A stretch of 32,273 bases of DNA from Burkholderiales bacterium. GTDB lineage: Bacteria > Pseudomonadota > Gammaproteobacteria > Burkholderiales > Burkholderiaceae_C. Each line of letters starts with the position of its first letter. Position 1 is the stretch's first letter. The stretch spans positions 1-32,273 of the forward strand of contig JANXYH010000098.1 in the NCBI GenBank assembly GCA_025350145.1. Reading direction: 5' to 3'. A program made the position numbers and the translations under genes. The notes beneath the pieces are model-generated. The model worked only from the letters and a program-made list of their open reading frames with translations. It had not been told where the DNA came from and did no database searches. Shown in pieces: positions 1 through 21,405 of this stretch.

Positions 1-142
1 ACCCCGGCCCTTCGGGTAAGCCCCGAATTCAAACCCACTCGGCGTTGCAATGCTCGATGGGTCCACCAACCCGTCTGCGCTTTGCGCTGGGCTTGAATTC
101 GGGGCTTACGCGGGTGCATGGGATTGCCTCTCAGCCTCTCAG
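1..142 (-). repeat. Copy A of a structured intergenic repeat, cut by the window edge
   Basis: These 142 bases are identical to 20736-20877 except for one base (T at 82, G at 20817). They contain a long inverted repeat: 16-37 pairs with 88-109 over 22 positions with one imperfect pair, enclosing a loop of about 50 nt. The end 109-139 equals the right terminal inverted repeat of the complete copy at 20614-20877. The left half would lie upstream of base 1 and is not visible. The element lies downstream of the solute-binding protein gene, and its last bases supply that gene's TGA stop (139-141). No coding potential is evident. It could be a non-autonomous mobile element, a REP-like element or a transferable 3'-end hairpin. 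Confidence 0.9.
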
Positions 143-1725
143 TGCGAGTGCCTGACCCAGCGCAGCTCCATCTGGTCATTGGGCCATTGCAGCGCCTGCA
201 CCTGCTTGGCCATCGCCCAGTTCAGTTTGCGGCGGTACAGCGGCAGGTAGGCGATGTCGTCGCTGGCCAGGCGCAGGGCCACGCCGACCCGGGCGCGGCG
301 CCGGGTCAGGTCGGGCTCGGTCCGCACCGCGTCGATCAACACATCCAGCGCCGGGTTGTTGTAGCGCCCGGCGTTGAAGCTGCCGCCGCCCTTGGGATCC
401 CAACTGTGCAGCAGGCCGTTGAGCGTAGACCAGGCGTCCACCGCCGGTGTCCAGCCGAATTCGATCAGGCTGGCCTGGGCACCCGAGAGCTTGGGGAAGA
501 ACACATTGGTCGGCGACGAGCGCAGCGTCGCGCGGATCCCGACCTGGGTCAGCATCGCCGTCGCCGCCTGGCAGACCGCCTCACGGTAGGCGACATTGAC
601 GCAGTCCAGCGTCACCCCGAAGCCCTGCGGGTAGCCGGCCTCGGCCAACAAGGCCTTGGCCCGGCCCGGGTCATAGGGGATGCGCTTGTCCAGCTCCGGC
701 AGGTAGCCATCGACCTGCGGCGAGACCATGGAACCGGTCACTGTCGCCTGGCCGCGCAGCACCTTCTGCACGATCAGCTCGACGTTCAGCGCATGGGCCA
801 CGGCCTGGCGAACCCGTTTGTCCTTGAACGGGTTGCGGTCCTTGACATCGCCGTGCAGCAGCTCGTTGCGGGCATGGTCGAAGCTCAGGTACTGGGTGCC
901 GATGTCGGTCATGGACAGCACCGTCAGCCTGGGGTCCTGGCGCAGCCGTTCTACATCTTGGAACGGCGGGTCCATGACCATGTCGACCTCGCCAGAAGCC
1001 AGGGCCGCCAGCCGGGTGGCATCGGACTTGATGCTGATGTAGCTGGCTTGGCCGATGTTGCCGCTGCGCGGGTCCGAGTGGCCCCACCAGGCGTCATGTC
1101 GGGTCAACACGGTGCGCACGTCGGGCTGGTAGCTGTCGAGCTTGAACGGGCCGGTGCCGTTGGCATTGCGCACCGCAAAGGTCTCTTGCTTGCCGTTGTA
1201 GTCCTGCGCCTTTTCGATGCCATGGGCGCGCGCCCAGGCCTGGCTCATGATCGCCACCTGCAGCAGCTTGTCGGGCAGCACCGCGTCGGGCGAGGAGAGT
1301 GCGAAGTCCAGCGTCAGGTCGTCAATCTTTTTCACCGCGCTGATCGCCTGGAGGGTGAACGAGCGCTGCGACGTGGGCCCCTGGGCCCGGGCGATTGAGA
1401 ACACCACATCGTCGGCGCCCAGCGGCGTGCCGTCGTGGAAGACCACACCCGGCCGCAGCTTGAAGCGCCAGAGCTGCGGGTTGAGCATCTGCCAGGACTG
1501 CGCCAGCGCCGGCTCCAGCTTGAACTGGGCATCGCGGTTGACCAGGCTCTCGTAGATCTGGGTGCTGATCCGCGAGTGGTAGAGCAGGGCCAGCGCGTGC
1601 GGGTCCATGGTCTGCGGGTCGAAGGCGCTGGCCACCCGCAGCGCGGCCGTGCCGGCGCTGCTGGGCGCGGCCGACAGCAGCGTCAACGCGGTGAGCAGCC
1701 CCGCCAGCCAGGCGTGCAGCGACAT
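139..1725 (-). CDS. ABC transporter substrate-binding protein, family 5 (peptide/opine type)
   Basis: Predicted periplasmic solute-binding protein of the SBP family 5 (OppA/DppA-like), 528 residues, usual for the family. The first 24 residues form a Sec signal peptide (charged start, Leu/Ala-rich core, small residues before the cut). Family features follow: an N-terminal stretch on a drug- or peptide-like target date ('DPQTMDPHA'), the 'LAQSWQ' segment and the 'FKLRPGVVFHDGTP' motif. The start at 1725 is favoured over upstream in-frame starts because AGGAGG lies 7 nt before it. No permease or ATPase genes adjoin, so it is an orphan binding protein here; upstream is a PEP-CTERM gene behind a terminator. 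Its stop codon lies inside the repeat copy A. Substrate cannot be told: peptides, opines or glutathione are possible. Confidence 0.9.
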   Translation of the reverse strand: MSLHAWLAGLLTALTLLSAAPSSAGTAALRVASAFDPQTMDPHALALLYHSRISTQIYESLVNRDAQFKLEPALAQSWQMLNPQLWRFKLRPGVVFHDGTPLGADDVVFSIARAQGPTSQRSFTLQAISAVKKIDDLTLDFALSSPDAVLPDKLLQVAIMSQAWARAHGIEKAQDYNGKQETFAVRNANGTGPFKLDSYQPDVRTVLTRHDAWWGHSDPRSGNIGQASYISIKSDATRLAALASGEVDMVMDPPFQDVERLRQDPRLTVLSMTDIGTQYLSFDHARNELLHGDVKDRNPFKDKRVRQAVAHALNVELIVQKVLRGQATVTGSMVSPQVDGYLPELDKRIPYDPGRAKALLAEAGYPQGFGVTLDCVNVAYREAVCQAATAMLTQVGIRATLRSSPTNVFFPKLSGAQASLIEFGWTPAVDAWSTLNGLLHSWDPKGGGSFNAGRYNNPALDVLIDAVRTEPDLTRRRARVGVALRLASDDIAYLPLYRRKLNWAMAKQVQALQWPNDQMELRWVRHSH

Positions 1726-1846
1726 CGACAACCTCCTGGGCATAGCCGACTCCGGTCCGTGTGCATTCGCGCAGGCAAGGGCAGACGATAAGTCCTTCGG
1801 ACCAGCGCGGCGACTGGCCAAGGCCTTGGCAACCCCCGCCGCCATG

Positions 1847-1919: not shown

Positions 1920-2603
1920 TCAGGCCTTCTTGGCGCGGCGAGCGGCGACCAGACCCATCAGGGCCAGGCCGGCCAGGGCGAACGAGCCCGGCTCGGGGGT
2001 GGGCAGGGTGATCTGGTCGAAACGCTGGCGAATGATCGACTCATCGGCCGTGTCGGTGCCGCCGACGACCAGGATGTTCTTCAGCACATCCAGCGAGTAG
2101 GTGTTGACGGTCAGCGCATTGATGTCGTCAAACAGGTGCGAGGGCACCGAGGCGAACATCGAATAGCCCTGGCTGTGGATGGCGTCATGCAGTGTCTCCG
2201 AGGTCTGTGCCTGGCCACCGGCACCGCCGTCATGGCCGGCGATCAACAGGTGGGCGCTGTGGATCAGGAACTTGCTCGGGTCGGTGACGCTGACCGTGAA
2301 GCCCAGCGACAGGTCGGCGCTGTTGCCGGCAGACGCGTTGATTGCTCCGCTGAACTGGATGCCGAAGCCTTGGGCGTTGGCGTTCAGGCCGTGGACGAAA
2401 ACGCCGGCCGGAGCGCAATGGCCGCCAGCGGTGTGCGAGCAGGTCGCCGAGAAGTCGCTGAAGATCTTGTCGCCAACGGTGAAGGTGCCACCGGCCAGCA
2501 GGGTGTCCAGCGTGACATCGGGAGAAATGAAGACGGCGTTTGCGCTGCCGGCCATCAGGCCGCCGACGGCTGCCAGTGCTGCCAGGATCTTGTTGAATTT
2601 CAT
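1920..2603 (-). CDS. PEP-CTERM sorting domain protein
   Basis: 227-residue exported protein. Residues 1-22 are a signal peptide ending in ANA. The body is Gly/Ala/Ser/Thr-rich and of no family I recognise. The C terminus carries the exosortase signal: PEP at about 203-205, a hydrophobic helix (ALAGLALMGLV) and a basic tail (RRAKKA). In the known PEP-CTERM/exosortase system such proteins are exported, cut near the PEP motif and released or attached to extracellular polymer. The start at 2603 fits the signal peptide and has GGAG 6 nt upstream; the longer in-frame extension would run through the promoter. A near-perfect sigma-54 promoter lies upstream. No exosortase gene is in the window. Role in biofilm or floc matrix is inference. 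Confidence 0.9.
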   Translation of the reverse strand: MKFNKILAALAAVGGLMAGSANAVFISPDVTLDTLLAGGTFTVGDKIFSDFSATCSHTAGGHCAPAGVFVHGLNANAQGFGIQFSGAINASAGNSADLSLGFTVSVTDPSKFLIHSAHLLIAGHDGGAGGQAQTSETLHDAIHSQGYSMFASVPSHLFDDINALTVNTYSLDVLKNILVVGGTDTADESIIRQRFDQITLPTPEPGSFALAGLALMGLVAARRAKKA

Positions 2604-2684
2604 GGGTCGCTCCAATGAGAGAGTTGTACGGTCTGAACTTGCGCCCAGAGACTTGCGTGTTGCCGCTGGGGTTGCGTGGATATA

Positions 2685-2700
2685 AGCAATCACTGTGCCA
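2685..2700 (-). promoter_or_regulatory. Sigma-54 (-24/-12) promoter of the PEP-CTERM gene
   Basis: Read on the minus strand the sequence is TGGCACAGTGATTGCT, which matches the RpoN consensus TGGCAC-R-N4-TTGC-W at every defined position. The -24 element is 2695-2700 and the -12 element 2685-2689. Transcription would start near 2674 and give a leader of about 70 nt before the ATG at 2603. Sigma-54 control together with the PrsK/PrsR two-component system is known for PEP-CTERM genes in other betaproteobacteria. Confidence 0.8.
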
Positions 2701-2709
2701 GAAGGAAGA

Positions 2710-2732
2710 AAGTCGTGCAATTTCAACGACTT
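2710..2732. promoter_or_regulatory. Inverted repeat just upstream of the sigma-54 promoter
   Basis: AAGTCGT (2710-2716) and ACGACTT (2726-2732) are perfect arms around a 9-nt centre. The centre begins 10 nt upstream of the -24 element. It is a candidate activator or repressor operator. Enhancer-binding proteins usually bind farther upstream, so the role is open. Confidence 0.4.
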
Positions 2733-2778
2733 GGCTGTGGCCGGCGGCCTGAGCACGGAGCGCCCTGCGATCGGCTGT

Positions 2779-2803
2779 AAAAAATCCCGACAGCGTGATC
2801 GGG
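2779..2803 (-). terminator. Rho-independent terminator of the arginase transcript
   Basis: On the minus strand CCCGA pairs with TCGGG (2799-2803 with 2786-2790) and is followed by A and a run of six T (2779-2784). It lies 26 nt beyond the arginase stop and before the sigma-54 promoter, so it insulates the PEP-CTERM gene. A further inverted repeat, CGTTCGC/GCGAACG (2805-2811, 2822-2828), lies between it and the stop. Confidence 0.65.
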
Positions 2804-2829
2804 CCGTTCGCGACAAAGTTGGCGAACGC

Positions 2830-5574: not shown

Positions 5575-7029
5575 TCACGGCTTGTCTGGCCGGTCGACAT
5601 CGAGCGCGGCCTTGCGCTCGACATGGGTCTTGCTGACCGCCACCGGCTGACCCTTGAGCTGGTTCAGCGCCTGGGCCAGCGGGAAGTCCTCGCCGCTGCC
5701 GAATTCGGGCAGGGGCTTGGGCGGCTCCTTGCTCTTGGCGCTGAGTTCCTCCAACTTGACCCGCGCTTCCTCGCGGGCCTTCTCACGCGCCAGGTCTTTT
5801 TCCTCGGGCGAGGTGGTGTTGCCGAGGTGTTTTTCCAGGTCGGCCTCGCGCATGCGCAGCGCGGCAAAGACGTTGCCCTCGGCAGTTTCGTCAAGCCAGA
5901 CATCGGGGACGATGCCCTTGGCCTGGATCGAGCGCCCGCTGGGGGTGTAGTAGCGCGCCGTGGTGATTTTCAAGGCGGTGTCGCCGGTGAGCTGGCGGAA
6001 GGTCTGGACCGAGCCCTTGCCAAAGGTCTGCGCGCCCATCACGGTTGCACGCTTGTGGTCCTGCAGGGCGCCGGCGACGATCTCGCTGGCCGAGGCCGAG
6101 CCTTCGTTGACGAGCACGATCAGCGGCACCGATTTGAGCGCTGCCGGCAGGGCACGCAGCGGGTCGCCGCTGCCACGGCGGGCGTAGAACTCCGGCGTGG
6201 CCTTGAAGGTGGCCTTGGAATCGGCGATCTGGCCGTTGGTGGATACCACCGTCGCGTCGGCCGGCAAGAACGCCGCCGATACCGCCACCGCAGCGTCGAG
6301 CAGGCCGCCCGGGTCGTTGCGCAGGTCCAGCACCAGGCCCTTGAGCTTGGGTTCGGCCTTGTAGAGATCCTGCAGCTTGCGGGCGAAGTCTTCGACCGTG
6401 CGCTCCTGGAACTGGCTGACGCGGATCCAGCCATACCCCGGCTCGACCACCTTGGCACGGACGCTCTGGACGCGGATTTCCTCGCGCGTGATGGTCACCG
6501 GGAAGCTGCGGTTCTCGTCGCGCCGGACGATTTGCAGCACCACCTTGGTGTTGGGTTCGCCGCGCATGCGCTTGACCGCCTGGTCCATGCCCAAGCCCTT
6601 GACCGCCGTGTCGTCGATCTTCGTGATCAGATCGCCGGACTTGAGCCCCGCGCGAAAGGCCGGTGAGCCCTCAATCGGCGAGACCACTTTGACCAGGCCG
6701 TCTTCCATGCCGATCTCGATGCCGACGCCGACGAATTTGCCGGAGGTGCCCTCGCGGAACTCCTTGAAACCCTTCTTGTCGAGGTAGGCCGAATGCGGAT
6801 CCAGCCCGGCGACCATGCCGCCAATCGCGTCGGCGATCAGCTTCTTCTCGTCGACCACATCGACATAGTCGGTCTTGACCGCGCCAAAGACCACCGCCAG
6901 TTGCTGCAGCTCTTCCAGCGGCAGGGCCGCAAAGCTGTTGCGCGCAAACGCCTGCAACTGCATCGTCGCCAGCGCGCCTGCGACTGCGCCCAAGGCCAGC
7001 AGCCCCGCCACCTTCAATTTGCCGCTCAT
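5575..7029 (-). CDS. S41 family C-terminal processing peptidase (CtpA/Prc-like)
   Basis: 484-residue carboxyl-terminal processing protease. Residues 7-29 form a hydrophobic N-terminal anchor or signal, placing it in the periplasm. A PDZ domain spans about 100-170. The S41 core includes LDLRNDPGG (235-243), the catalytic serine segment SASASE (311-316) and the lysine of TFGKGS (K338), giving the Ser/Lys dyad. The tail from about 390 is charged and Pro/Lys-rich. The start at 7029 has AGGA 7 nt upstream and fits the anchor; the longer in-frame reading (to 7197) lacks these. It lies 90 nt before the ThiF-like gene. The likely role is turnover or maturation of envelope proteins such as peptidoglycan hydrolases, by family analogy. 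Confidence 0.92.
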   Translation of the reverse strand: MSGKLKVAGLLALGAVAGALATMQLQAFARNSFAALPLEELQQLAVVFGAVKTDYVDVVDEKKLIADAIGGMVAGLDPHSAYLDKKGFKEFREGTSGKFVGVGIEIGMEDGLVKVVSPIEGSPAFRAGLKSGDLITKIDDTAVKGLGMDQAVKRMRGEPNTKVVLQIVRRDENRSFPVTITREEIRVQSVRAKVVEPGYGWIRVSQFQERTVEDFARKLQDLYKAEPKLKGLVLDLRNDPGGLLDAAVAVSAAFLPADATVVSTNGQIADSKATFKATPEFYARRGSGDPLRALPAALKSVPLIVLVNEGSASASEIVAGALQDHKRATVMGAQTFGKGSVQTFRQLTGDTALKITTARYYTPSGRSIQAKGIVPDVWLDETAEGNVFAALRMREADLEKHLGNTTSPEEKDLAREKAREEARVKLEELSAKSKEPPKPLPEFGSGEDFPLAQALNQLKGQPVAVSKTHVERKAALDVDRPDKP

Positions 7030-18814: not shown

Positions 18815-19138
18815 TCAGGCGGCCTCTTGGTGTCGGCCCGCCATCAGGATCGAGGCATGCAGCCGCGACACGCCGTCGTTGGCTGCGGCCCTGCCATGGC
18901 TGGTGAGCAGGCCCCAGACCAGGTCGTCGTCGCAGCGCATGCGGCACAGCAGGGTATTGCCGGCGGCGATCTTCATCATTTGCGACGGGGTCAGGGCGGC
19001 GATCAACTCGGCGCTGGACTCGCTCACGCCCAGCCGGAAGAGCGCCTGGTCGCGGTCGGCGCGGATCAGCGACTGGGCCAACATCAGGTAGGACAGATTG
19101 GCTTCGCGGATCTCGGCGAGGACTTGTTCGGTGTTCAT
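18815..19138 (-). CDS. flhD: FlhD, flagellar master activator subunit
   Basis: 107-residue FlhD, partner of FlhC. The conserved N-terminal segment 'EIREANLSYLMLAQSLIRADRDQALFRLGVS' and the helix-turn region 'LTPSQMMKIAAGNTLLCRMRCDD' are clear. The start at 19138 (MNTEQV) has GGAG 6 nt upstream and matches the usual FlhD N terminus; the longer in-frame reading to 19456 has no family similarity. It is first in the flhDC operon and divergent from the receiver-domain gene across 416 nt. It is about ten residues shorter than the enterobacterial protein at the C terminus. Confidence 0.95.
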   Translation of the reverse strand: MNTEQVLAEIREANLSYLMLAQSLIRADRDQALFRLGVSESSAELIAALTPSQMMKIAAGNTLLCRMRCDDDLVWGLLTSHGRAAANDGVSRLHASILMAGRHQEAA

Positions 19139-19554
19139 GCAGTGCTCCAGGTGTTGCGGTGGTGTAAGGGGTGTGTGAAGCGAATGTAGGGGCCTGAAAC
19201 GCAGCCAGGAATCATCCGCTTGCACCTTCTTGAGTCCTGTTTTTTCCGCTCTGCCTGTCAGGCAAATTCCTACACCTCGGCCGTGCCGCCAGGCCCAGTG
19301 GCCGCAGGTGCGGCAAAGCGCACACTGCGGTCGAGCCTGTGTGGGCATGCAACACCTGCTCAGGCTGTGGACAAGGCGGCGCTGGCCGATACCATTGGTT
19401 GAGGCGAGCGTTGTTTGCGCGTCGGGAGCTTGGCAGCGGTGGTCGGGCGGCAACAAACACAGGCCGCACGCTGTTTGCCGGCCTGGATCGCGGCACGCCG
19501 CCCCTGCGTTACTGACCCTGATGCCGAGGCCCAGCCATTGCCATTGCCATCACC
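19139..19554. promoter_or_regulatory. Divergent control region between flhD and the receiver-domain gene
   Basis: 416 nt without a convincing gene. It must hold the flhDC promoter(s) and that of the divergent gene. I find no clear sigma-70, sigma-28 or sigma-54 boxes by eye. A 13-bp palindrome TGCCTG-T-CAGGCA (19252-19264) lies about 115 nt upstream of the flhD ATG and next to an AT-rich stretch with a run of six T (19240-19245), a possible operator. The 3' part has a loose inverted repeat (CGGCAACAAACA at 19449 onward, TGTTTGCCG near 19472) and short CATTGC repeats before the plus-strand start. Confidence 0.6.
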
Positions 19555-20589
19555 ATGCACATGACTGAATTGATCGAGATTGCCGCCGTGCTGGGCGTGG
19601 TTGCACTGCTGGCCGTGGTGTTCGTGCTCAGGGGCGGTCGGCAGAAACCGCAGCGGCCCGCTGTGCCAGCACCGCCGCAAACACGGCCACCGCAGCAAGC
19701 GCCAGCGGGCCGCAGCAGCGCGGCCTCGCCAGCCGTCGCGGCTCGGCCGGCCATGCCGGTGGAACGGCCGATCCAGCGCCAGCCCGCAGTCGCCAAGGCG
19801 GCGGTCGAATCATCCGCACATCGGCCCCAAGCCGCGCCGGTGCAAACGGCCCCGGCATCGACCCGGCCATTGCCTACGCCGACGCTGAAGCAGGCCGCGC
19901 CCGCGCCGCCGCCACTGCCTGCGGCACCTGGCAAGGTGGCTGTCCTGCCCTCGGCCGAGCCGCCACGTGCCCGGGCGCCGCAGGCCCTGCCGCCATTGAC
20001 GCCGGTGGCCAAGGCGCCGCTGGACCGGGCGCCTATGGCGCCGCCACCGGCAGAGCTTCGGGCCGCGCCTCGACCCGCGCCACCCGCGCCACCCGCACCG
20101 CTGCCGCCGTTGGCCGTTCCGCGGCCTTTCGCCACGGCCCAGGCGCCGACGTCGAGCGTGGCTGTGCCCAAGCCCGTGCCGCTGCCCGACGCCCCGCCGG
20201 CGGTGTTGCTGGTCGACGATTCGGCCGTGGTCCGCGTCAAGCTCAAGAAGCTGCTCGACAGTGCCGGCTACCGGGTGGCCGTGGCGCGCGACGGCCTGGA
20301 CGCACTCGAGGTGATGCGCGGCCAAACCTTCGAGCTGCTGATCACGGACCTGGAGATGCCCAACATGGACGGCGCGACGCTGATCGCGGCGGTCCAGTCG
20401 AAGGCCCAGACCCGGGCCATGCCTATTCTGGCCATCACCGGCCACGAGCAACTGCCGGCCGGCCTGCCGTTGGGGTCGTCCAGCCTGCGCCAGGTGCTGC
20501 GCAAGCCCTGGGTCGACGCCGAGGTCCTGGCGCAGATTGCTGCCGCCCTCAACGCCGCACCGGCCTTGCGCCAGGCGGCGCTGGCCTGA
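19555..20589 (+). CDS. Membrane-anchored receiver-domain protein with Pro/Ala-rich linker
   Basis: 344 residues. Residues 5-26 form one membrane helix (LIEIAAVLGVVALLAVVFVLRGG). Residues about 30-215 are a low-complexity Pro/Ala-rich linker with scattered Arg and Lys. Residues 216-344 are a response-regulator receiver domain: acidic pair D221/D222, phospho-acceptor D265 (TDLEMPNMDG), T295 and K307 (RKPW). No output domain is present. The basic RGGRQK after the helix suggests that linker and receiver are cytoplasmic. ATGs at 19555 and 19561 are both possible; no strong ribosome site is visible. It is divergent from flhDC, so a link to motility or chemotaxis is plausible but inferred. No dedicated histidine kinase adjoins. 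Confidence 0.85.
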   Translation: MHMTELIEIAAVLGVVALLAVVFVLRGGRQKPQRPAVPAPPQTRPPQQAPAGRSSAASPAVAARPAMPVERPIQRQPAVAKAAVESSAHRPQAAPVQTAPASTRPLPTPTLKQAAPAPPPLPAAPGKVAVLPSAEPPRARAPQALPPLTPVAKAPLDRAPMAPPPAELRAAPRPAPPAPPAPLPPLAVPRPFATAQAPTSSVAVPKPVPLPDAPPAVLLVDDSAVVRVKLKKLLDSAGYRVAVARDGLDALEVMRGQTFELLITDLEMPNMDGATLIAAVQSKAQTRAMPILAITGHEQLPAGLPLGSSSLRQVLRKPWVDAEVLAQIAAALNAAPALRQAALA

Positions 20590-20613
20590 GCCAGTCAGGC
20601 GCGCTGGCGGTTC

Positions 20614-20877
20614 AGAGGCTGAGAGGCAATCCCATGCGCCCGCGCCGGGGTGACCAAGGGCTCTGAGCAAGGCGCGACGCGACGCCCGCACTGACGTGCG
20701 GGCAAGCGTTGCAACGCCGCGCAGGGCCCTTGGACACCCCGGCCCTTCGGGTAAGCCCCGAATTCAAACCCACTCGGCGTTGCAATGCTCGATGGGTCCA
20801 CCAACCCGTCTGCGCTGTGCGCTGGGCTTGAATTCGGGGCTTACGCGGGTGCATGGGATTGCCTCTCAGCCTCTCAG
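20614..20877 (-). repeat. Complete copy B of the structured element with terminal inverted repeats
   Basis: The ends 20614-20644 and 20844-20874 are inverted repeats of 31 bp with one mismatch. Inside, 20644-20661 and 20726-20743 pair over 18 positions with one mismatch. A hairpin GCCCGCAC-TGAC-GTGCGGGC (20684-20703) and the palindrome GCGTTGCAACGC (20706-20717) lie within that loop. A 22-bp stem pairs 20751-20772 with 20823-20844. The part from 20736 on recurs at 1-142. No ORF and no target-site duplication are evident. It fills the gap between two convergent genes and its right end supplies the TGA of the DUF1841 gene. A non-autonomous (MITE-like) element or a REP-like regulatory hairpin are the main options. 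Confidence 0.85.
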
Positions 20878-21305
20878 CGTGTGGCCCGGCGCCGCACCGC
20901 GTCCAGGTAGGCGTGGCCGTCCGGCGGCAGACCGCTGCGCTGGCTGGCCCAGACCATCTCGCCCAGGCACTCCATCACCTCGTGGTGGGCGGCATGCAGG
21001 TCGCCGCGTCGGGCGACCAGCAGTTCCACCGCCTGGCGGATGCCGCTGGGCTGGTCGATGCTGCATTGCTCGCTGATCGACAGGTGCATGGACAGGTGCA
21101 GGAACGGGTTGGTCTTGCCGTCCTCGACCTGGTAGACGGCCGCCAGCGCAGCGGCCTCGTCGGCCAGCGCGAGGTGGTACTCGGGGTGCTGCCCGATCCA
21201 GCCTGCGGCCAGGCCCTGCATCGCCGACAGCACCGCGCCGTCGCGCTGCTGCTGCCAGGTCTGGCAGAAGAAGCGGCGAACATCGTTTTGCGAGGGCTGG
21301 AACAT
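20874..21305 (-). CDS. DUF1841 family protein
   Basis: 143-residue protein of the DUF1841 family, which is conserved in betaproteobacteria and has no known function. Recognised segments are the start MFQPSQNDVRRFFCQTW, the 'HPEYH' segment, 'DGKTNPFLHLSMHLSISEQ' with several His/Glu residues in the middle, and the C-terminal 'HHEVMECLGEMVWASQRSG'. No signal peptide or membrane segment is present, so it is probably cytoplasmic; the His/Glu pattern would allow metal binding, which is inference. ATG 21305 is chosen because the family begins there; the longer reading only translates the 8-bp tandem repeat upstream. The stop codon is the first three bases of the structured repeat. Confidence 0.88.
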   Translation of the reverse strand: MFQPSQNDVRRFFCQTWQQQRDGAVLSAMQGLAAGWIGQHPEYHLALADEAAALAAVYQVEDGKTNPFLHLSMHLSISEQCSIDQPSGIRQAVELLVARRGDLHAAHHEVMECLGEMVWASQRSGLPPDGHAYLDAVRRRATR

Positions 21306-21330
21306 GCGGCCAATTGTCATTCCAAGGCCG

Positions 21331-21378
21331 GGCGCCTTGGCGCCTTGGCGCTTGGGCGCCTTGGCGCCTTGGCGCCTG
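21331..21378. repeat. Tandem repeat, six 8-bp units (GGCGCCTT)
   Basis: Six contiguous octamers: GGCGCCTT, GGCGCCTT, GGCGCTTG, GGCGCCTT, GGCGCCTT, GGCGCCTG. They also read as two 24-bp units that differ at one base. Each intact unit contains the palindrome GGCGCC. The array lies between the antiporter stop (21406) and the DUF1841 start (21305), in the latter's 5' leader. Length change could alter leader structure or promoter spacing. Confidence 0.9.
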
Positions 21379-21405
21379 GGCACGCTGCCGGCGCAGGCCT
21401 GAGCC

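Follow-up and report, generated by a model that had tools for sequence, protein, structure and literature searches.

A probable MITE of a widespread structural type, with a branched hairpin core and a frequent position at stop codons

Introduction

Structured, dispersed elements include Correia elements, which are found at TA, as well as ERIC and bcr1; we know of no two-module core in any of these and, to our knowledge, ordinary MITEs do not possess a conserved branched core. Tn3-derived TIMEs have Tn3-type ends of 38 bp and a duplication of 5–6 bp.

MITEPsy1 of Pseudomonas syringae, listed as 'IS5?' and inserting at CTAG or YTAA, has been shown to transpose (PMC3189936). Like the element described below it is short, gene-less and bounded by inverted repeats, but it is 100 nt long with 18-nt ends and a 4-nt duplication, and the passages of PMC3189936 that treat it describe no two-module core. 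The same passages list ISPsy19, an IS5-family member that resembles one class of our elements (the GAG-end class) in its ends, GAGGGTGT..., and its 3-nt duplication; it differs in being a coding IS of 1178 bp with a listed target of CHHD rather than TNA. The part of PMC3281130 that deals with the IS427 group gives its members 832–865 bp, mostly 13–18 bp ends, mostly a 2-bp duplication and two overlapping ORFs; these are autonomous elements without hairpin modules. In the sections of PMC2718517 that describe them, the R0 and R2 repeats of P. fluorescens SBW25 are MITE-like, share ends with resident IS and occur in excess between convergent genes, although at 89 and 110 bp they form a single hairpin; this likeness is one of description only. 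The MITEs treated in the passages of PMC4853749 are other elements. Term-based searches of open-access literature yielded no description of the element.

Here we analyse this element in a 32,273-nucleotide stretch of DNA (the window: contig JANXYH010000098.1 of Burkholderiales bacterium assembly GCA_025350145.1), in its source genome and in related genomes.

Results

Anatomy of the window element

A first-pass annotation of the window, made from its letters, had described a noncoding block with terminal inverted repeats. The block is real; its body can be refined to 259 bp, with boundaries given by the inverted-repeat match and by the ends common to copies (Table 1). The 31-bp terminal repeats were recovered (20614–20644 and 20844–20874; 31 nt, 97%), as was an inner inverted repeat, although the 18 positions assigned to it are too few: it spans 25 nt at 92% (20748–20772 and 20823–20847). 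Two more inverted repeats were found, one of 25 nt (88%; 20644–20668 and 20719–20743) and one of 15 nt (93%; 20705–20719 and 20775–20789). The reported recurrence of the right 142 nt at window positions 1–142 also holds, with 99% identity; this second copy is incomplete because the contig begins inside it. To this description we add the flanking direct repeats and the position at a stop codon.

Table 1. Features of the element and its surroundings in the window.
Feature	Position	Strand	Evidence
Second copy, right part, cut by contig start	1..138	+	BLAST, covariance model R1
H2 module of second copy	16-109	-	covariance model R1
TCA adjoining second copy; TGA stop of solute-binding-protein gene 139-1845(-)	139..141	.	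sequence, ORF
Gene on other side of element, response-regulator domain; stop 25 nt before element body	19555..20589	+	ORF, domain match
Left TCA direct repeat, presumed target site duplication	20612..20614	.	sequence; TCA before own-genome H1-side ends
Element body, 259 bp	20615..20873	+	inverted-repeat match, ends common to copies
Left terminal inverted repeat (GAGGCTGAGAGGC...)	20615..20644	+	inverted-repeat search
Hairpin module H1, core AAGGCGC...GCAACGCC	20649..20738	+	covariance model R1, 87.1 bits
Centre CCCTTCGGG separating H1 and H2, predicted mini-hairpin	20743..20751	+	sequence, fold
Hairpin module H2, inverted relative to H1	20751..20844	-	covariance model R1, 39.9 bits
Right terminal inverted repeat	20844..20873	+	inverted-repeat search
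Right direct repeat TCA; on - strand, TGA stop of DUF1841 gene	20874..20876	.	ORF 20874-21383(-)
Gene facing element, PF08897 DUF1841	20874..21383	-	ORF, domain match

The predicted RNA fold of window positions 20600–20890 reaches –215.3 kcal/mol on the plus strand and –204.6 kcal/mol on the minus strand (z-scores –14.3 and –15.1), and none of 200 plus-strand shuffles folded as well. There is no transposase gene in the 259–266 bp elements: ORFs across the window element are mechanical only, and none of more than 126 aa starts or ends inside as a supported gene. Elsewhere in the window are an ORF with an FlhD domain and a long N-terminal extension (18815–19456, minus strand; a mechanical reading) and a gene for a PEP-CTERM protein (1920–2816, minus strand).

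Copies in the source genome

The source genome is a 4.56 Mb draft of 211 contigs, in which BLAST identified 37 pieces of the window element. By distinct flanks these represent at least eight copies, 95–99% identical and nearly all at contig ends; four matches are full-length or nearly full-length. One copy is assembled through, one is a 36-bp remnant and the others stand at contig ends. These are the marks of a repeat with many copies that spread recently and interrupted the assembly.

The first-pass annotation had called for this count, on the reasoning that a genome with just two copies, differing in their end points, would point to a local segmental duplication. Eight distinct left flanks (one of them that of the remnant) and eight distinct right flanks join the element at the same ends, and the situation envisaged does not therefore apply. 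Two copies in one window, 20.7 kb apart, are what such a duplication would leave, but copies with unrelated flanks and the same ends occur on at least 12 other contigs, and we give this origin practically no credence.

All eight H1-side ends are preceded by TCA, and TGA, which is TCA read from the other side, is found at 10 of 11 H2-side ends, one visible only as GA at a contig end. The flanks thus carry a direct repeat of TCA in one orientation, with locus L013 as the exception. The 36-bp remnant (L015:1501-1539, contig C24 of the source genome) derives from an H1-side end, is flanked by TGA and abuts an open frame whose product we take to resemble the C-terminus of an IS91-type transposase. 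The window element had no match in the plasmid and phage collections and one sister element had none in plasmids; another sister element gave two partial matches in the collection search.

Relatives share an architecture

Twelve of 60 close genomes, among them the source genome, contain relatives detected by nucleotide search, some of the matches being partial. The letters of these loci are different but the plan is the same: a stem at the termini encloses two modules of approximately 90 nt with a short centre between them. We aligned 24 modules, each required to have the motif and to match at no fewer than 9 of 20 arm positions (a requirement that inflates both pairing and conservation), and built from them the covariance model R1. 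With a threshold of E up to 0.001 per genome, R1 matched in 36 of the 60 close genomes, in 91 of 369 genomes of the class and in 67 of 398 genomes of the phylum, the source genome being counted in each set; the class and phylum scans scored about ten candidates per genome and their copy numbers are lower bounds.

Ends could be called for 61 two-module elements, selected by end match. Thirty-five are exactly 266 bp long and 50 fall within 264–267 bp; in all 61, 12–14 of the first 14 nt pair between the ends, which is the match used for selection. In 28 elements CCCTTCGGG or its complement is present unaltered as the centre. Most elements carry their modules in opposite orientations, with direct arrangements at L037, L046, L118 and L135, and there are one-module elements of about 165 bp (L108 and L186). 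The motifs AGGCGC and GCAAC occur together in 26 of 32 distinct modules outside the relatives, all of them retrieved with a model whose training modules contained that motif, and in 55 of 71 modules of relatives taken without the AGGCGC filter, some of which are weak opposite-strand matches; in the 61-element set AGGCGC stands at 100% by virtue of the filter used. A similar branched fold is predicted for members from Variovorax, Thiodiazotropha, gamma HTCC5015 and two Acidobacteria records.

The first-pass annotation had proposed a dispersed non-autonomous element, possibly of a new family, and both the same-ended copies in distinct flanks and the relatives of the same architecture, which are spread over many families of bacteria, bear this out.

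Several single loci deserve mention. The Acidobacteria MAG elements (L252:5600-5837 and L267:544-828) share their ends with the other elements and fold into a comparable branched shape, but around a different core that scores at or under the R1 threshold (30.1 bits for L267; L252 unlisted), and are possibly a distant branch or a case of convergence. One module (L205:11277-11367, 69.8 bits) was detected on contig IMGVR_UViG_3300049574_000262, which is viral, and an end TGTTAACAGGCCCTAG lies close to it; a one-module element (L136:1004-1164, genome G034) appears, by eye, to lie within a tRNA gene cluster. Miniature derivatives of 56–88 bp consist of terminal inverted repeats with GGGCCTGTT ends and contain no full module (L279:6362-6424, L255:3128-3215 and L257:7160-7215).

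Insertion sites and candidate transposases

The flanks of the 61 elements are TA/TA in 34 cases and identical TNA in seven, the remaining 20 being without a clean pair of either kind; 18 elements restore CTAG. No true empty site with both flanks was recovered. A 4-bp duplication of CTAG is disfavoured, since the left TA is preceded by differing bases (C 23, T 7, A 3 and G 1 among the 34 TA/TA elements) and the right TA by a base of the element itself. A Tn3-derived TIME can be set aside, the flanks being TA or TNA and not a 5–6 bp duplication.

These ends also bear on the likeness to MITEs or REP/REPIN elements that had been suggested in the first-pass annotation. Likeness to a MITE fits; likeness to a REPIN fails by size and ends. 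Movement by a RAYT (a Y1 transposase) would account for an element that is palindromic, dispersed and intergenic, but a length of 266 bp, ends of about 30 bp and TA/TNA repeats contrast with a 20–40 bp palindrome bearing a tetranucleotide foot, and the IS with matching ends are of the DDE type. We consider this origin highly unlikely.

Scanning named genomes with TAGGGCCTGTTNACAC gave at least 120 matching stretches, 80 of them as loci. With 15 fixed bases we estimate that several hundred matches would arise by chance in a collection this large, and single matches therefore mean little. Among the matches listed, autonomous IS-sized pairs enclosing an IS5 transposase occur at two loci, L251 (2025-2851; 827 bp, Pelomonas sp. 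Root1237) and L271 (6762-7580; 819 bp, an Acidobacteria MAG). Both IS begin and end with TAGGGCCTGTTAACACTA and contain two ORFs, DUF4096 plus DDE_Tnp_1, and the second ORF of this type scores over the cut-off of the NCBIfam IS5 model NF033580. They have the traits of the IS427 group: a DDE transposase of IS5 type, two ORFs, a size of about 830 bp, ends of 14–18 bp and a 2-bp duplication, as far as the group is set out in the relevant part of PMC3281130. Two further IS of this kind were found, L195, in the genus of the window, with one end slightly different, and L330 (G034), with one good and one decayed end. An end pair 1,319 bp apart at L244 encloses ORFs that by eye are IS3-like.

The most likely type of partner is an IS5 element, IS427-like. 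The search for a transposase with matching ends, as the first-pass annotation had advised, was successful for the sister class with GGG ends, but yielded none for the GAG class to which the window element belongs: BLAST detected no IS with the window element's end sequence in its own genome, and in 21 genomes of the genus the matches listed for the GAG-class end pattern were mostly near background or came from the elements themselves. An IS5_3-type transposase is present in only two of 12 element-bearing genomes, and DUF4096 in three of six examined. In G027, 26 of 30 end-pattern matches form 13 short pairs, none IS-sized. The DUF4096 genes of G042 were rejected as partners, being short ORFs for which no flanking inverted repeats were found; the nine (L194 and L197-L204) have open frames of 154–204 aa, one just after a CheW-like gene (by eye), and read by eye as standalone genes that may be domesticated IS5 fragments. 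The DUF4096 locus of the source genome (L196) was likewise rejected: the IS5-like gene there is disrupted, is of another kind and lacks these ends.

Stop codons and neighbouring genes

At six of the eight right ends with a flank in the source genome (L001, L005, L006, L007, L009 and L010) the TGA is the stop codon of the gene facing the element. The exceptions are L008, where a Crp-like frame ends at a TAG 26 nt before the TGA, and L013, with TCA in place of TGA. Among the genes concerned are those for DUF1841 and the solute-binding protein (both in the window) and for ThyA; the others are presumably XdhC-like, amidohydrolase-like and dienoyl-CoA-reductase-like, in part as judged by eye. In relatives without the element the same stop codon is used by 12 of 13 DUF1841 genes (the thirteenth ends one residue later), by 11 of 11 ThyA genes, which by eye are followed by an apparent folA, and by four of four orthologs of the gene at L009. 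This support from orthologs covers L001, L006 and L009; the comparison gave no ortholog for L005, L007, L008 or L010.

For the relatives, occurrence at stop codons was compared to a random choice among the TA/TNA sites of the same gaps. The comparison left out L106, L129, L132, L045 and L034 (unusual ends), unmatched flanking repeats, duplicates and untyped flanks; this retained 34 of the 61 elements, 29 with a converging gene, and 28 once L040 (no site) was removed. Gene calls came from a codon model trained on the window, which is rough for other genomes. The converging gene ends in a restored TAG, TAA or TGA in 23 of the 28, against an expectation of 16.8 (sd 1.45). The excess is modest; the pattern is mostly explained by scarcity of targets together with survival, and a real preference of insertions for stop codons is possible. 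The junction TAG is likewise the stop of the gene preceding the autonomous IS at L271 (ORF 5697-6764; IS from 6762).

Orientation toward the stop is the oddest result. Among 25 elements with one junction stop, the module facing the gene tends to be the same within a sub-group: it is so in 12 of 12 elements of the largest sub-group, in 4 of 5 of a second, and in 2 of 3 of each of two more, while two further elements are uninformative; the sub-groups were drawn by eye and several elements come from one genome. Since TA is symmetric, the target does not explain this bias for TA insertions.

Paired changes in the hairpin core

In the 24 aligned modules 85.2% of stem cells are paired and 30 of 37 pairs show changes on both sides; double-changed cells number 222, compared to 73.5 after shuffling, and sliding the partner by one column reduces pairing to 41–44%. 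On the module's own strand G-T exceeds A-C by 59 to 25 (56 modules below 70% identity; p = 2.7e-4, uncorrected for kinship), and by 52 to 21 in a companion count. When 25 elements are read in the direction of the facing gene's transcript, the asymmetry is absent: 55 G-T against 53 A-C, or 23 against 30 in the module arms alone, and sense and antisense modules do not differ (p = 0.40). Selection at the RNA level, as judged by transcript strand, was accordingly rejected.

These counts bear directly on the idea that the element persists because it works as an RNA or at the 3' end of messages: transcription would run into it from the gene at whose stop it lies, and the folded product would end or protect the message, with mobility secondary. 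Such a role would suit the very stable fold, the location just after stop codons, the bias in which module faces the gene and the excess of G-T on the module strand. It sits poorly with the lack of any such excess on the transcript strand; moreover, the usual inverted arrangement always places one module of the pair antisense to the message. Window positions 20400–21100 contain no terminator-like site (a GC stem followed by a T run), and Rfam gave no match at gathering score in the window. We therefore regard this role as unlikely. Rfam searches of 11 loci at E up to 1 returned six matches, of which one exceeded its cut-off: an sX9 sRNA (L118:79-155; 50.9 bits, cut-off 44), which lies close to an element but not within it. 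A weak mir-485 match falls on an element module (L133).

Paired changes might also arise by quasi-palindrome correction, in which one arm is rewritten from the other through template switching, without selection for the fold. Arms that are wholly different between sub-groups while matching within a copy would follow from such a process, as would the near equality of G-T and A-C on the transcript strand, and the derivatives that consist of terminal repeats alone are consistent with it. Against it stand the constant total length, the inner motif common across families and the G-T excess on the module strand; we hold it possible, though doubtful.

Folding of the modules on their own strand irrespective of the direction of the gene, for example as single-stranded DNA, fits somewhat better than a message-bound RNA, if weakly. 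A bolder proposal, which we put forward tentatively and with well under even confidence, is that the two-module core is a selected, strand-specific nucleic-acid machine (single-stranded DNA or RNA), common to elements with different ends and probably different transposases across the phylum and held in fixed orientation to the stop: a structured-DNA passenger or helper that adopted several IS5-type transposases. The 56–88 bp derivatives speak against any need for the core, since such ends occur in them with no full module.

Discussion

By its anatomy the element is a MITE with a conserved branched core. Taken together, the data lead us to conclude that it probably represents a widespread, previously unrecognised structural type of MITE, mobilised in trans by an IS5-family, IS427-like transposase at TA/TNA.

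We infer that G[GA]G... ends, those of the window's GAG class among them, would be recognised in trans by an IS5-family transposase (IS427-like, perhaps also IS1031-like), which would join them to TA or TNA and duplicate those two or three bases. Because TA and TNA are scarce outside stop codons in GC-rich genomes, surviving insertions would often sit on TAG, TAA or TGA; and because the element starts with G, insertion at TA|G would rebuild TAG and leave the host protein unchanged. The two modules and the terminal repeats would fold as a branched structure, and the role of the core, if it has one, is most likely in folding while the element is single-stranded, as in replication.

If this reading is correct, annotation has missed a common structured element in roughly one in four of the sampled genomes of the class (91 of 369). 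It would also offer a clean case of transposon target choice meeting the genetic code, in which a TA/TNA target combined with an end that starts with G spares the stop codon of the host gene, even inside operons such as thyA-folA. Finally, the elements would constitute a natural experiment on whether the hairpins of MITEs are selected or are copied by template switching, a question that is open for most bacterial MITEs.
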